NCBI GenBank assembly: GCA_035533015.1
Contig: DATLUQ010000008.1
Location: 1-35,432, forward strand
Direction: 5' to 3'
DNA: 35,432 nucleotides
Source of the DNA: Gemmatimonadaceae bacterium
GTDB taxonomy: Bacteria > Gemmatimonadota > Gemmatimonadetes > Gemmatimonadales > Gemmatimonadaceae
A program made the position numbers and the translations under genes. A model generated the notes under the pieces. It was not told the DNA's origin, did no database searches, and saw nothing but the letters and a program-made list of their open reading frames with translations. Below are positions 28,700 through 35,432 of the stretch, one piece after another (the first letter of the stretch is position 1; every line of letters starts with the position of its first letter).

Positions 28700-29932
28700 T
28701 CACGCAGGTGTCGCGGCGGCTTTGGCGGGGCGGCTGCCGCCGGCGGTCCTGCTGGCCAGTTCCGGCAGTCCCTGGCATGCCTGGTCGAGGTCGGCCAGCA
28801 GGTCGCCGATGTCTTCCACGCCGCAGGAGAGCCGGACGAGCCCGTCGGTGATGCCCAGAGCGATCCTGCGCTCGGGCTCGACGGAGGCGTGGGTCATCAT
28901 CGCGGGGTGGCTGATCAGCGATTCCACCCCGCCCAGCGATTCGGCCAGTGAGAATACGTGCACCCGTCCGAGGAGGTGGGCGGCGCGCTCTTTGGTGCCC
29001 ATCTCCACGCTCATCATGCCGCCGAATCCGCTCATCTGGCGCTTGGCCAGGTCGTGCTGTGGGTGGGTGGGGAGGCCGATGTAGTTGACGTGTTCGGGGC
29101 CCAGGCGTTCGGCGAGCCAGGCGGCAACGGCGCGGCCGTTGGCGTCGTGCCGCGGCATGCGCAGGTGCAAGGTCTTGGTGCCGCGCAGGGCGAGCCAGGA
29201 ATCGAACGGGCCCGGCACGGCGCCGGCAGCGTTCTGGATGAAATTGAGCTTGTCAGCCAGCCCGTCGTCGTTCACCAGAGCGATGCCGCCCACCATGTCG
29301 CTGTGGCCGTTGAGATACTTGGTGGTGGAGTGGAAGACGATGTCGGCGCCGAACCGGAACGGCTGCTGGAAGAACGGCGACGCGAAGGTGTTGTCGACGA
29401 TGAGCAGGGCGCCGCCCTGCCTGGCCACCGTCGAGACGGCCGCCAGGTCGGTGAGCCGCATGAGCGGGTTGGTCGGCGTTTCCACGAGGATGGCCCGGGT
29501 GGCAGGCGTGAGGGCATCAGCCACCCGCTGGGGGTCGCGGGTATCGACGTAGCTGAACCGCAGGCCCATGTGCTGCAGGATCTTGTCGAACAGGCGGAAG
29601 GTGCCGCCGTACACGTTCTCGCCGCAGATGATGTGATCGCCGGCGCGGAACAGTTTCATGATCGAGTCGACGCATCCCATGCCGCTCGAGAAGGCAAAGC
29701 CGTGCTGGGCGCCCTCGAGCGCTGCTACGTTACGCTCCAGAGCCTGGCGCGTTGGATTCTTGCCACGCGCGTACTCGTAGCCCTTATTCTCCCCGAGGGC
29801 TTGCTGGACGTACGTGGAGGTCAGATATACGGGCGTCATGATGGCGCCCGCGAGGGGTTCGGGGCGCTGGCCCGCGTGCACCGCGCGGGTCGCAAAGCCG
29901 GCGGCGAGGTCGTCGTCGTAAACGCGAGTCAT
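28700..29932 (-). CDS. Cys/Met-metabolism PLP-dependent enzyme (cystathionine gamma-synthase or gamma-lyase)
   Basis: The 410-residue protein belongs to the transsulfuration (Cys/Met metabolism) family. YARGKNPTRQALERNVAALE, SSGMGCVDSIM, ENVYGGTFRLFD, ETPTNPLM, VDNTFASP and the PLP-lysine motif HSTTKYLNGHSD are all present, as is SLAESLGGVESL. These motifs are shared by cystathionine gamma-synthase, beta-lyase and gamma-lyase, so the exact reaction is not decided here. The ATG at 29932 is the first in-frame start after the divergent promoter region; no strong ribosome site is seen. TATCTT on the minus strand at 29968-29963 may be its -10. A Pro/Ala/Arg-rich tail ends the protein. It faces away from the REC-HD gene. 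Confidence 0.9.
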   Translation of the reverse strand: MTRVYDDDLAAGFATRAVHAGQRPEPLAGAIMTPVYLTSTYVQQALGENKGYEYARGKNPTRQALERNVAALEGAQHGFAFSSGMGCVDSIMKLFRAGDHIICGENVYGGTFRLFDKILQHMGLRFSYVDTRDPQRVADALTPATRAILVETPTNPLMRLTDLAAVSTVARQGGALLIVDNTFASPFFQQPFRFGADIVFHSTTKYLNGHSDMVGGIALVNDDGLADKLNFIQNAAGAVPGPFDSWLALRGTKTLHLRMPRHDANGRAVAAWLAERLGPEHVNYIGLPTHPQHDLAKRQMSGFGGMMSVEMGTKERAAHLLGRVHVFSLAESLGGVESLISHPAMMTHASVEPERRIALGITDGLVRLSCGVEDIGDLLADLDQACQGLPELASRTAGGSRPAKAAATPA

Positions 29933-29973
29933 GCCGAATCTCGGTCGGTGGGAGACACGGGTAAGATAATCGT

Positions 29974-29990
29974 CGCCGGGGGGCCCGGCG
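29974..29990. other. Perfect hairpin in the divergent PLP-enzyme/REC-HD intergenic region
   Basis: CGCCGGG-GGG-CCCGGCG is a perfect 7-bp stem with a 3-base loop. It sits in the middle of the 87-base gap between two divergent genes, where operators usually lie. It may be a protein-binding site or an RNA hairpin in the leader of the REC-HD gene. Confidence 0.4.
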
Positions 29991-30019
29991 AGCACGGGCA
30001 GCGCAGCGGATGGAGTGTC

Positions 30020-31081
30020 ATGGAGAAGATCGGACGGGCCTCGTGCCTCCTGGTGGACGACGAAGCGCCCCTGCGGCAGGTGCTGGTCCAATTGATGCGC
30101 GGAGACGGCTTCGAGTGCCTCGAAGCGGCCAATGGGCGCGAGGCGCTCACCAGTCTCGAGACCCACCGGGTTACCCTGGTGATCTCGGACCTCCGGATGC
30201 CGGAGGTGGACGGGATCGAGTTGCTGCGCGAGATCCGGGCGCGCTACCCCGACACGGCGGTCATCATGCTCACCGCGGTGGCGGACGTGGAGATGGCGGT
30301 GAAGTGCCTGGCGATCGGCGCCATGGACTACCTCACCAAGCCGTTCCACCTGGAGGAGGTGCGGGCGCGGGTGGGACAGGCGCTCGAGCGCCGCCGGCTG
30401 ATCCTGGAGAACCGCGACTATCAGGAGCGGCTGGAGGAGCGGGTGGCGGCGCAGGCGCGCCGGCTGGAGGAACTGTTCCTCACCGGCATCCAGTCGCTGG
30501 CCGAGGCCCTGGAAGTGAAGGATCCGTACACGCGGGGCCACTCCATCCGCGTGAGCACGTATTCCAGCGTCATTGCCCGCGCGCTGCGACTCGACGACGA
30601 GATGATCTGGCAGATCGAGCTGGGCGGGCACGTGCACGACCTGGGCAAGATCGGGGTGCGCGAGGCGGTGCTGAACAAGCCCGGCCGGCTGACCCCGGAG
30701 GAATATGAGCATATCATGATCCATCCGGTGGTCGGCTGGCGGATTCTGGCACCGCTGCTCGGCGATGCGCCGATCGCGCTCAACATCGTGCGCTCGCATC
30801 ACGAGCGGATGGATGGGCGGGGGGTGCCGGACCAACTGCGGGGACGCGCGATTCCGCTCGAGGCGCGCATCGCCGCGGTGGCCGACGCCCTCGACGCGAT
30901 GACCAGCGGCCGGCCGTACCGCAGTGCCGAACTGACGCTCGAGGGAGCCGTGGGCGAGTTACGGAGGAACCGGGGCGTCCAGTTCGACGCCGACGTCGTC
31001 GAGGCCGTGTTGCAGGCGGTGGCGGACGGCGCCTTGGTGTTGGTTCCGAGACCGGCGACGATCGTCGAAGTGAACGGCTGA
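30020..31081 (+). CDS. Response regulator with REC and HD (HD-GYP-like) domains
   Basis: The 353-residue protein has an N-terminal receiver domain (1-125) with the acidic pair DDE (13-15), phosphoacceptor D57 in VISDLRMPE, and the KPF loop near 107. A coiled-coil stretch follows (about 128-150). The C-terminal HD domain (about 155-330) has GHSIRVSTYS, HVHDLGKIGV, HPVVGWRIL and HHERMDGRGVPDQLRG. In c-di-GMP phosphodiesterases of the HD-GYP type the last part reads DGxGYP; here the Tyr is Val. Metal ligands otherwise look kept. The start is the ATG at 30020, with GGAG four bases ahead. No histidine kinase is nearby. It could degrade c-di-GMP or have lost that activity. Confidence 0.88.
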   Translation: MEKIGRASCLLVDDEAPLRQVLVQLMRGDGFECLEAANGREALTSLETHRVTLVISDLRMPEVDGIELLREIRARYPDTAVIMLTAVADVEMAVKCLAIGAMDYLTKPFHLEEVRARVGQALERRRLILENRDYQERLEERVAAQARRLEELFLTGIQSLAEALEVKDPYTRGHSIRVSTYSSVIARALRLDDEMIWQIELGGHVHDLGKIGVREAVLNKPGRLTPEEYEHIMIHPVVGWRILAPLLGDAPIALNIVRSHHERMDGRGVPDQLRGRAIPLEARIAAVADALDAMTSGRPYRSAELTLEGAVGELRRNRGVQFDADVVEAVLQAVADGALVLVPRPATIVEVNG

Positions 31082-31092
31082 GCAGGCTTCGG

Positions 31093-32538
31093 TCAGCCGC
31101 CGCTGACGATCACGCTCGCCGGCTGCTTGTAGGCGCTCAGCCGTGTCTCGCACCACTGGCGAATCGCGTCGGCCGTGACCGTGCCGTCGACGTCGAGCGC
31201 GATGTCGAAATCTCGCAACGGTTCCGGGATGGCGCGCACCCTCACCTCGCGTACGCCGGGCAACTCCGACACCGCCTGCCGGATTTCTTCGGGATAGATA
31301 TTGAAGCCGTTGCGCGTGAACATCGGCTTGATCACGCCCTCGAACACCACGGCCCCGCCCGCGCGCACAGCCCCGCGGTCGCCGGTGTACAGCCACCCAT
31401 CGCGTACGGGCAGCCCCGCCTCTCCGCCGCTCACGTACCCGGTGAACACGTTGGCGCCGCGCACGCAGATCTCTCCCGATTCGCCGTCGGGAAGCTCCGG
31501 CGTGGCCGGCCCGCCGGGGCCGCTGCCCGGACGCCGGACGGATACCTCCACGCCAGGGAAGGACACGCCCAGCGCACCGCGCACGTTGGGCCGGTCGATG
31601 CGGTTGAACAGGCACACGGGCGCTGCCTCGGTGAGTCCGTAGCCCTGGCGCAGCTCCACACCCGTGATGTCGAACCACTGCTCCTGCAGGGCAACGGGCA
31701 GCGGCGCGCCACCGCAGACGCATACCCGCAGCTCCCCCACGCCGGCGCGACGGCGCTCGACGGCGGCGAGCAGCGTCCTGAACACGGCCGGCACGCCGAC
31801 GACCTCGGTGATTCCGGCCGTGGCGAGCAGCTCGGCGGCACGCGACGGATCAAACCGTTCCATGGTGGTGACGCGGGCGCCGGCGAACAGCGGGGCCGTG
31901 CCCGTCACCGTGAGGCCGAAAAGATGAGCGAATGGTAATAGCGCGAGCACATGGTCGCCGGCGTCCTGGCGCACGGCCTCGACGGTGCTCCGGGCGTTGG
32001 CGATCAGGTTGCGATGGGAGAGCACGGCGCCCAACGGGCGCCCGGCCATGCCCGAGGTGTACACGATCACCGCTTCCTCGTCGCACCCATCCACGCCGCG
32101 CTCGCCCGCGAGCGCCAGCCCGTGGTGCGATCCCAGGTCCACTTCGCGGGCCGTGCCGCCGGTGACGAAGCGCGCCGAACGCGGGGCGTCGTCCAGCAGC
32201 ACGAACGGCACGCCGTGGGGCACCAGCGTCGCGAGCGCGGTCGTGGTGAACACCGCGCCGACGTTCGCGTCGCGCACCTGCGTGGCGACCTCAATCGGTG
32301 CGGCCAGCGGGTTGACGAGCACTGCCCCCCGACCATCACTGGCCGACAGCGCCGTGAGATATGCGGGGCAGGCCGGAAGCAAGATGGCCGACCGCCGCCC
32401 GGACAGCGCCCGCACGAGCGGCGCGCACCGCTGGAGCAGGGTGAGGCCCGCCGCCACGAGTTGCGGCGCCGGATAATCTCCCAACTGGCCACCCCCTGCG
32501 GCGGCGGCCAGCGGCAGCAACGAGAGCGGATCGGTCAC
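31093..32538 (-). CDS. ANL-superfamily acyl-CoA synthetase-like protein, C-terminally truncated
   Basis: The 481-residue protein has adenylate-forming motifs: [16 protein letters not shown] (usually TSGTTGxPKG), [33 protein letters not shown] and, near the end, LSAYKQP. The C-terminal motif PRTxxGKxxR, whose Lys catalyses adenylation, is not present: the reading frame stops right after VIVSGG, where that motif should begin. The Lys of PKG in the P-loop is also replaced by Leu. Both changes argue for a weak or altered enzyme. The start is the GTG at 32536-32538, which overlaps the chemoreceptor stop as GTGA. Its stop is 11 bases from that of the convergent REC-HD gene. It could act as an acyl-binding partner, or thioesterify without adenylating; that is speculation. 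Confidence 0.82.
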
Positions 32539-34295
32539 AGGTTGAAACGCGACATCGACTGCTTGAGCCGCTCGGCGATCGATGCCAGATGCTGGCTGGA
32601 CTGCACCACGGCATTCATCGATCCCGTCTGCTGCTCCACCACGCCGCTCACCTGCTCGGCGGTGGCCGCGTTCTGCTCGGCGGCCAGCTGCAGGGCCTCG
32701 ATCTCGCGGGCCAGGGCGGCGGCGTCGTCGCGCTGGGCTTCGGCCGAGGCGACGATGAGGTCCACCGCGCCGCGGCTCGCTTCGATCTCCTTGCCGATCT
32801 GGGCCAGCGCGCCCGACGACGCGCGGATCACGCCCTCTCCCATCGCCACCCGGTCGGTGACCTGGGCGATCTGCTCCTCGGTGCGGATGGCGGCCGTGCG
32901 GATTTCCGCGGCCAGGGTGCGGATGTTGTCGAGCGCGTTCGCGGTCTGGTTGGCGAGCTTGCGCACCTCGTCGGCCACGACGGCGAAGCCCTTGCCGTGC
33001 TCGCCCGCCCGGGCCGCCTCGATGGCCGCGTTGAGCGCGAGCAGGTTGGTCTGCTTGGCGATGGCGGCAATCGTCTCGGTGATCTTGCCTATCCGCTGCG
33101 ACTTCTCCCCCAACTCCACCACAGCCGGCACGGCGTCGTGCGTCACGGCCGTGATCGCCGTCATGCTTTCCAGCGCCTGGCCGGCCGCCGTCACGCCGCG
33201 CGCCGCCGAGCGCGCCATGATGTCCGATGCGTTCTGCGCGTTGCGCGCGTGCCCGGCCACGGTGAATGCGCGGTCGGCCACGCGGGTGGCCCCCTCGGTG
33301 GCCGCCGTCACGTTGCTGGTCTGGGTGGCCGCGGCACTCGCGATCGCGCGCGCCGCGTCCGAGACCTGATCGGTGGTGGCCGCCATCTCCTCGGCGCTCG
33401 CGGCCAGTTCCTCGGCGGTGGCTGCCACTTCGCCCGCGCCCGCGTCGAGTTCGGTCAGCAGGCTGCGCAGCCCGACGGTCATACGGCGCACTGACTCGGC
33501 CATGGCGCCGATCTCATCGGCCGCGATGTAGTGCAACTCGTGGCGCAACTGCCCCATGGCCACGGCGTCGGTCTGACGCGTGACTTCATCGAGCCCGCGG
33601 GTGAGCCGCGCCGCGCCCCAGTACGAGAGGCCGAGGGCGAGCAGCAGCGCGACCAGGGGGAAAGGCGTGAACCGGATCAGCTGCCAGCGCAGTTCGCTCA
33701 GGAACTGGTCCGCGCGGAGCGTGGCCACGATGAAACCGGCAATCGAGCCATCGGGACGGCGCACGGGCACCTCGGCCGACAGCAGCGATCCCTCGTCCGT
33801 CACGTACACCCCGGTGTACGCTTCTCGCCCGATCTCCATGCTGTCGGACAGCCCGGGCGGCGAGACCCACCGCCGCGCATACTGCGCCTGGCCGGCCTGC
33901 CACGAGGCGTGCACGAGCACCCGCCAGGCCCCGGTGCGGTCCGCGCGGACGACAGCCAGTCCGTTCACGAGGTCGCTCTCGCTCGCGCCGTTGGCTACCC
34001 AGGCGTGCAGGAGCGCGGATCGGCTATCGCGGAATGCCGTCGTTTCTTGCCCCTTGGCCGCGATGACATCCAGCGAGTCGGCGTTCACCACGAGCGTCGC
34101 GCCGCGGGCCATGCCGAGCAGGCGATCGCCGTGCACCTTGGCCAACTGGCTCCGGGTGCCCACGTACACGGGCACCATGATCACGCCCAGCGTCAGCACG
34201 ACGGCCGCGGCGCTGATCGCGGCCATTTTGAGCCGGAAGGGAAAGCGGATTGTACCGCGTTTGTCGTTCGGCTTATTCAGTGGGCCGTTGTCCAT
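32535..34295 (-). CDS. Methyl-accepting chemotaxis protein with periplasmic sensor domain
   Basis: The 586-residue receptor has a first transmembrane helix at about 26-46, a periplasmic domain to about 209 with no motif I can name (it resembles dCache/sCache beta segments such as [16 protein letters not shown]), and a second helix at about 210-230. A HAMP domain (231-283) follows, then a long coiled coil. The kinase-control tip [20 protein letters not shown] and [15 protein letters not shown] (about 410-448) is highly conserved. Adaptation regions rich in Glu/Gln/Ala flank it. No CheW-binding pentapeptide is seen at the C-terminus. The ATG at 34295 is preferred, since its promoter lies 13 bases upstream. 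No other che gene is in the window. Confidence 0.95.
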
Positions 34296-34407: not shown

Positions 34408-35432
34408 ATGGGCCACGACGGGCTGATGGTGAGCGTATCGGGAATTCGCGGCCGGGTGGGCGAGGCGCTCACCCCGGAAGTGGTCGCGCGCTACGCCGCG
34501 GCTTTCGGTGCCTGGGCGGCCGGTTCGGGGCGCTCGCGTACCGTGGTGCTGGGGCGCGATAGCCGCGTCTCGGGGCCGATGTTCCACCGAATCGCGGTCG
34601 GGGCTCTCCAGTCTGTTGGCTGCACCGTTATGGACATCGGCCTGACCACGACCCCGACCTGCCAGTTGGCGGTGGAGCACCACCATGCGGCAGGCGGGTT
34701 GATGCTCTCGGCCAGTCACAACCCCATCGAGTGGAACGCGCTCAAGTTCATCGGACCGACGGGGCTGTTTCTCGAAGCCGCCGAGGGCGCGGAGATGCGA
34801 CGGATTGCCGAGGCGGGCATTCCGTACGCGACGTGGGACAAGTTGGGCGTGGTGGAGCACGACGATCGTGCCGCTCTGCGACACATCGACTGTGTCCTTT
34901 CGCTTCCGTACGTGGACGTGGAAGGGCTGCGCCGGCGGCGCTTCAAAGTGGCGTTGGACTGCTGTCGCGGTGCTGGATCGGTGATCATGCCGGCGTTGCT
35001 CGACCGGCTGGGCTGCGTGGTGAGCGTCATCAACGCCGAGCCGGACGGCCGCTTTCCGCGGTCTCCCGAGCCGGTGGCCGAGAACCTCGGCGAACTGCAA
35101 CGATTCGTGCAAGAGACCGGTGCCGACGTCGGGTTCGCGGTGGACCCGGACGTGGATCGGCTGGCCATCGTATCCAATGAGGGGCGGGCGATCGGCGAGG
35201 ACTATACGCTGGCGCTGGCCACGCGGCTGGTGCTGCGGCATCGCAAGGGGCCCGTGGTCACGAATCTCTCGACAAGTCGCGTGGTAGAGGACGCGGCGGT
35301 GGCCGGCGGGTCGGTGTTGCTCCGGGCGCCGGTGGGCGAGGTGAACGTGGCGGTGGCGATGCGCGACGCGAAGGCCGTGGTCGGGGGTGAGGGAAACGGA
35401 GGGGTCATCCTGCCCGAAGTGCATCTCGGGAG
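34408..35432 (+). CDS. glmM: Phosphohexomutase, archaeal-type GlmM (phosphoglucosamine mutase), partial
   Basis: The frame is open from the ATG at 34408 to the right edge (341 residues), so the last quarter or so is missing. Family motifs: SGIRGRVG near the start, the phosphoserine site MLSASHNP, the Mg loop VDPDVDRLA and the sugar-binding loop GGEGNGGV. The last reads GEGNGG rather than the GEQSGH of E. coli GlmM, which matches the archaeal-type GlmM/phosphomannomutase branch as I remember it. It converts glucosamine-6-phosphate to the 1-phosphate for peptidoglycan, or handles mannose or glucose phosphates. GGAGG lies 4 bases before the ATG. It is divergent from the chemoreceptor. Confidence 0.9.

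Follow-up and report, generated by a model that had tools for sequence, protein, structure and literature searches.

Enzymes of the ANL superfamily abound, and annotation labels them as ligases as a matter of course. In the window analysed here, the whole stretch of 35,432 nucleotides taken from a Gemmatimonadaceae contig (DATLUQ010000008.1, assembly GCA_035533015.1), one gene encodes a protein that matches the Pfam AMP-binding family (E=4.2e-53) and stops where the block with the catalytic lysine is expected. Is this protein a crippled ligase, half of an enzyme, or a product with another job? The coordinates of the features that bear on the question are collected in Table 1.

Table 1. The ANL gene, its motifs and its neighbours in the window
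Feature	Position	Strand	Remarks
Putative pseudo-ANL gene	31093..32538	-	481 aa, GTG start
N-terminal module, residues 1-160	32059..32538	-	Conserved in long and short orthologues (conservation profile, dN/dS, N-terminal profile search)
Degenerate A3 P-loop, Met164 and Leu169	32029..32061	-	Motif columns of long forms
A5 motif RQGYGLTE, kept	31627..31650	-	Glu304 invariant in 44/44 long forms with the column filled
A7 motif GWLYTGD, kept	31378..31398	-	Asp387 invariant in 45/45 long forms
A8 region, Arg lost (Val402), hinge Lys404 and Gly411 kept	31282..31344	-	Motif columns
YKQP, final conserved motif ahead of the stop	31120..31131	-	Tyr470 45/45, Pro473 45/45
8-residue tail and stop codon, where A10 would be expected next	31093..31119	-	
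Methyl-accepting chemotaxis protein (MCP) gene	32535..34295	-	586 aa from ATG; MCPsignal and HAMP; 4-base overlap with the ANL start
Response-regulator gene, convergent	30020..31081	+	353 aa; strong adjacent homologue in 55/86 ANL pieces
glmM, partial, divergent	34408..35430	+	Fixed locus landmark

Catalytic motifs of the gene product and its long orthologues

The earlier note on this DNA had reported that the protein stops before the A10 motif (motif names A3 to A10 follow the usage in PMC8388817), that the PKG lysine of the P-loop is a leucine, and that a simple frameshift is not the cause, and all three observations stand. The window protein shares 77% identity with its orthologue in another genome of the genus (G001), and we called an orthologue long when Y(K/R)(Q/R/M)P lies within the last 40 residues of the gene product. 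All 45 long forms, the orthologues that reach this region, end 6 to 17 residues beyond that motif without A10. The comparison with homologues that the note had proposed therefore finds the truncation conserved, with no relative carrying the full motif: an A10-like sequence (Px4GK) is absent from 45/45 long and 52/52 short genes. In the window, no P-x(3-5)-GK block was found in the three minus-strand frames from 31100 to 30792, and 11 bp separate the stop from the end (31081) of the convergent response-regulator gene. The protein does have the C-terminal domain, and the missing part is the last stretch with A10. PF00501 matches all 24 long forms scanned and PF13193 matches 16 of them at E<=0.01, a threshold at which it finds no match in the window protein.

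Upstream of this end the motifs have fared unequally. The earlier note had considered all of them present, which holds for A5 and A7; the A3 Thr-Thr pair is replaced in the long forms, by Met-Ala in the window protein, and the A8 arginine has become Val402. In the P-loop, the lysine position is leucine in all 44 long forms with the column filled and the fourth position is methionine in 43/43, and the surrounding segment TSxMxGx(P/A/S)LG occurs in 43 of the 45, the other two being cut by contig ends. At A8, Rx(D/K)x6G, the arginine column holds Leu (33) or Val (12), yet the lysine and glycine of the same motif are kept in 45/45. The A4 residues are intact alongside A5 and A7, and Tyr470 is as invariant across the long forms as Glu304, Asp387, Lys404 and Gly411. 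By contrast with these degenerate members, canonical ANL paralogues picked from the hit lists of the family-genome protein searches have the P-loop lysine in 20/20 cases and the A10 motif in 19/20; the remaining one (L229), a weaker match than the others, shows none within the final 130 residues of its frame. One full-support branch of a quick tree, which gave a long-branch warning for one paralogue, separates the 20 paralogues from 21 members of the family. The long forms are thus members of the ANL superfamily by descent and fold, with the C-terminal domain present. Judged by their motifs, they lack the A10, A3 and A8 signatures of a functional ANL adenylating enzyme, and they retain its A5 glutamate and A7 aspartate.

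How much these losses would cost can be estimated from characterised relatives. The portions of PMC8388817 on these motifs assign the A10 lysine the key catalytic role in adenylation and describe the A8 arginine as contacting the ribose hydroxyls. For mutants of 4-chlorobenzoate-CoA ligase, that paper gives a 100-fold loss for the A8 arginine, 1000-fold for the P-loop Gly163 and only 4-fold for the P-loop lysine (the last in its Table 2). Loss of the lysine alone is therefore no proof of inactivity. It is the joint and invariant loss of the A3 Thr-Thr and Lys, the A8 Arg and A10 that argues against ATP-dependent acid activation by the long form. We also considered Arg526 of acetyl-CoA synthetase, as treated in part of PMC10455477, as the A8 arginine, but by motif order it lies rather in the loop after it, and it is left out of the argument.

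Short orthologues and constraint on the N-terminal region

Protein searches of 60 and later 179 family genomes, together with an N-terminal profile run on the same 179, placed orthologues in 99 genomes from 20 of 35 genera. Genes were extracted from 84 genomes (86 pieces) and then from the remaining 15, all short, which gives 45 long, 52 short and two unclassed genomes (G157, G117), whose pieces are truncated at the 3' side; G002 and G061, each with a piece truncated likewise, are counted as long through a piece on another contig. Among 395 genomes taken from the phylum, strong matches to the N-terminal profile were confined to one family. Partial matches (2.7e-13 to 9.3e-9) came from seven genomes in a second family of the class (f6), and we tentatively take these for ordinary ANL enzymes. 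A genome-collection scan, based on one peptide pattern and not a full census, returned 47 loci, all titled Gemmatimonadota, Gemmatimonadetes, Gemmatimonadaceae, Gemmatimonas or Roseisolibacter. Metagenome assemblies make up most of the named records, and Roseisolibacter sp. H3M3-2 and the single-contig genomes agree with them. Eighty of the 179 family genomes, some of them incomplete, yielded no copy of the gene, so its role is dispensable. No remnant was seen in the 18 of 20 fetched ANL-less loci that could be read through, L207 and L210 ending before the slot. In one genome where no ANL gene was found (G022), a different predicted protein of 332 aa occupies the slot between the MCP and response-regulator genes (L194:2506-3504).

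In 52 genomes, the same glmM-flanked locus carries a shorter gene of 187 to 423 aa, without the C-terminal domain. None of the 52 has a PKG-type P-loop or the family segment TSxMxGx(P/A/S)LG; L080, which is cut at its start and is among the 37 short pieces of the first extraction, keeps GTPLG. A5 is still recognisable in two short forms (L071, L080), and the PF00501 cut-off is reached by three of nine scanned. What they share with the long forms lies at the other end. The motif DLG[ST]H occurs in 41/52 short forms, 33/45 long forms and 0/20 paralogues, with one short and two long forms among the misses not covering that region. Over residues 1-40, 41-80, 81-120 and 121-160, mean information is 3.2, 3.2, 2.6 and 2.7 bits in the 37 short forms, against 3.3, 3.7, 3.1 and 2.9 bits in the long ones, and over residues 161-280 it is about 2.2 bits in the short forms versus 3.2-3.3 in the long. 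Along the N-terminal 160 residues or so, the short forms thus nearly match the conservation of the long forms, and decay begins downstream. No complete short form ends inside this N-terminal module, the shortest being the one of 187 aa.

In five genomes of 1.8-2.3 Mb from one genus group (g23), the genes (L186, L187, L188, L189 and L190) are cut down to 200-211 aa and end soon past an LLxPLLxG-like stretch, similar to APLFAG in the long form. Shortening in this group may accompany small genomes, with G176 (2.3 Mb, 329 aa) as a counter-case.

A quick tree of 73 loci, built from their neighbouring GlmM, GlmS and cystathionine lyase homologues, requires at least seven long/short changes, all seven forced by starred branches. 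Thirteen of the 86 pieces were omitted, five by name and the others for too little sequence, and of the four pieces truncated at the 3' side, L023 and L073 entered the tree as long and L097 and L098 as short. The count itself carries no direction; we read the changes as losses because regaining a full-length ANL sequence is implausible.

Nei-Gojobori counts over the 28 closest pairs, in which dS reaches 1.3, give the N-terminal part a dN/dS of 0.05-0.28. Where both parts could be measured in short-short pairs, which share genomes and are not independent, the N-terminal value is lower than the downstream one in 9 of 10 (the exception being L104/L105, with the higher dN/dS in the N-terminal part), and the downstream ratio rises to 0.54. 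These values indicate that the N-terminal ~160 residues are under purifying selection even in the short genes. In long pairs, the downstream dN/dS of 0.07-0.40 reveals constraint over the whole length, which implies that the pocket still matters there and could be catalytic. As far as codon counts and motif columns tell, catalytic residues have been lost in orthologues that stay under purifying selection, the combination that distinguishes a pseudoenzyme. The short orthologues, present in 52 of the 99 genomes, would therefore shift attention from a damaged ligase towards an N-terminal module that works without catalysis.

Predicted structures and a putative ligand-gated pseudoenzyme

AlphaFold predictions based on the family alignment are confident for both classes, with pLDDT 92.1 and pTM 0.91 for the long protein, whose C-terminal domain is modelled as far as residue 479, and pLDDT 91.6 and pTM 0.90 for a short form of 208 aa (L142). 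The short model superposes on the N-terminal part of an NRPS adenylation core (Z 16.2, rmsd 3.0 A, 176 residues) and covers chain residues 9-211 of that 387-residue core, roughly its first half. The short form is thus predicted to be a piece of the ANL fold able to stand alone.

The long model matches ANL structures with Z 38-43 among the matches listed (best 43.2), and the best structures by Z are aligned over only ~370 residues. Aligned length distinguishes the domain states: 450 residues on 5bsr (AMP+CoA) versus 373 on 5bsm (ATP), 444 on 3cw9 (thioester-forming) versus 386 on 3cw8 (adenylate), and 457 on 4zjz, benzoate ligase BadA, for which the relevant part of PMC8388817 gives a thiolation conformation. 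The TM-scores show the same trend in favour of thioester-state structures, on which the model superposes through its last residue, with less length covered on adenylation-state ones. These comparisons are no more than suggestive of a thioester-like domain pose of the long form. Against 4-chlorobenzoate-CoA ligase, the alignment of the long model ends with residue 481 on residue 484 (3cw9), and another alignment places query 154-475 on chain 154-478. By this register, which is not a residue-by-residue alignment, Phe473 and Arg475, the residues that bind CoA in that ligase according to the pertinent part of PMC10455477, would fall on Tyr470 and Gln472, so that the protein would end just past a CoA-pocket motif, YKQP.

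We regard it as fairly probable, while leaving real room for doubt, that this family, which our searches met only in the Gemmatimonadaceae, is an ANL pseudoenzyme derived from a fatty-acyl- or aryl-CoA ligase, whose shared function is non-catalytic and resides in the N-terminal subdomain, with ligand gating in the long form. Within this reading, there is good support for classing the protein as a pseudoenzyme and for regarding its N-terminal module as important, and the gene product probably now does a non-enzymatic job. The long form, whose lost residues belong to the adenylation side and whose kept ones include those of the AMP and CoA sides, would no longer make an acyl-adenylate. The function common to all members would be borne by the N-terminal subdomain without catalysis, most likely through binding another protein. 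More speculatively, the kept pocket of the long form (A5 Glu, A7 Asp, hinge Lys, the A8 glycine loop and YKQP) might bind a ligand of the AMP, acyl-AMP or CoA type in the thioester-like pose, and the filled pocket might gate the N-terminal interaction; the short forms may then have dropped the gate and kept the output module alone. Put in evolutionary terms, it is a little better than an even bet that, within one bacterial family, about seven separate losses of the catalytic portion have turned the N-terminal subdomain of an acyl-CoA ligase into a new, self-sufficient, non-catalytic domain of ~190-280 residues without a P-loop, with the long, adenylation-dead form as its ligand-gated precursor.

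In its predicted two-domain fold and in A4, A5, A7 and most of A8, the long form resembles MatB, 4-coumarate-CoA ligase, feruloyl-CoA synthetase and 4-chlorobenzoate-CoA ligase. Unlike ANL acyl-CoA ligases, the long forms are without the A3 Thr-Thr and Lys, the A8 Arg and A10, and some orthologues amount to less than half the protein. Core constructs of ANL enzymes (Acore and deltaAsub structures) demonstrate that the C-terminal subdomain is not needed for the N-terminal region to fold, which is also the prediction for the short forms; those constructs, however, keep the whole core (~360-460 residues, by titles and lengths), whereas the 208-aa form corresponds to about the first half and has no ANL P-loop. 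Pseudoenzymes are proteins that have lost catalytic residues and kept their fold for binding or regulation, and the present family agrees with pseudoenzymes in general in that selection continues to purify after the catalytic residues are gone. Among the matches listed from open-licence PubMed Central, no ANL pseudoenzyme family of such kind is described.

Alternative readings, gene neighbours and meaning of the family

Could the long form still perform half of the reaction? It might have lost the adenylation half and move an acyl group from external acyl-AMP to CoA or another acceptor, or hydrolyse it. Most of what is lost (A10 Lys, P-loop Thr-Thr and Lys) does belong to the adenylation side, Glu304, Asp387, hinge Lys404, Gly411 and Tyr470 are among the kept residues, aligned length and TM-score both point to a thioester-like pose of the model, and purifying selection extends over the full length of the long forms. 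However, the ribose-contacting arginine, which would be expected to help hold acyl-AMP, is gone in 45/45, the short orthologues do without most or all of the pocket, and free acyl-AMP supplied as a substrate would be unusual. We therefore consider such a half-reaction unlikely, though worth keeping in mind.

A functionless gene that persists for lack of time to disappear would account for the repeated shortening, for the genomes without gene or visible remnant, and for the relaxed downstream region of the short forms. It would not explain why the genes stay open in 52 short-form genomes, why the N-terminal dN/dS is so low at the dS reached, why no complete short form stops within the N-terminal module, or why the short form has a confident predicted fold; simple decay seems improbable to us.

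Equally improbable is that the protein serves as a cytosolic ligand or adaptor of the adjacent chemoreceptor. The 4-base overlap pointed out in the earlier note is real (GTGA, 32535-32538, joining the ANL start to the chemoreceptor stop), the same arrangement occurs in two same-genus loci, and the remaining MCP-bearing pieces, with a single exception, have gaps below 100 bases. A functional partnership finds no support across the family, as an MCP gene adjoins the ANL gene in only 17 of 86 pieces, or 15 when the count is limited to the 78 that include glmM, and is kept in 4 of 20 ANL-less loci (L194, L197, L205 and L207, from G022, G027, G034 and G143), which excludes it as an obligate partner. 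The MCP gene is a facultative neighbour, patchy in distribution and kept independently.

The rest of the neighbourhood is steadier. A glmM homologue stands on the strand opposite to the ANL gene in all 78 pieces with glmM in the fetched DNA, and glmM or a cystathionine lyase homologue lies near it in 86/86; glmM, glmS and cystathionine lyase are names that we presume from reading the sequences, as is the HD-GYP output that we attribute to the response regulator. Response-regulator hits were obtained in 60 pieces, five of them weak or non-adjacent. In the window, the cystathionine lyase homologue is overlapped in antisense by a plus-strand open reading frame of 707 aa (28958-31081), and the response-regulator gene proper starts from the ATG at 30020. 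Because ANL-less loci have glmM and mostly also the response-regulator and cystathionine lyase homologues, the neighbourhood is uninformative on a partner. A canonical ligase paralogue was likewise rejected as an obligate partner, since the ANL-less genomes G013, G018, G007 and G026 still have one.

That the long form is an ordinary but slow acyl-CoA ligase, with another residue standing in for the A10 lysine, appears very improbable. The 4-fold effect of the P-loop lysine mutation in 4-chlorobenzoate-CoA ligase (PMC8388817, Table 2) and the intact A4, A5 and A7 residues would allow it, but the A3 Thr-Thr and Lys, the A8 Arg (100-fold in the same ligase) and A10 are lost together and invariantly, and no stand-alone A10 domain was found in the four genomes of the genus. 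Supply of A10 in trans by a small separate domain was rejected because all 14 PF13193 matches in these four genomes (E<=0.001) lie in frames of >=527 aa. Finally, truncation of a normal ligase by a sequencing or assembly error, conceivable for a 66-contig assembly, can hardly be credited and is ruled out together with a frameshift by the same end in 45 genomes, including Roseisolibacter sp. H3M3-2 (L144, whose title does not mark it as a metagenome assembly) and the single-contig genome G177, and by the lack of an A10 block in the other frames.

In this family the lysines of both the P-loop and A10 have disappeared, and a natural deletion series shows which part of the protein selection has kept. 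Such genes call for caution against automatic annotation as CoA ligases. The family would offer a direct route to asking what an ANL N-terminal subdomain does alone, and the long and short orthologues at one locus would provide ready pairs in which ligand gating may be set against constitutive action.
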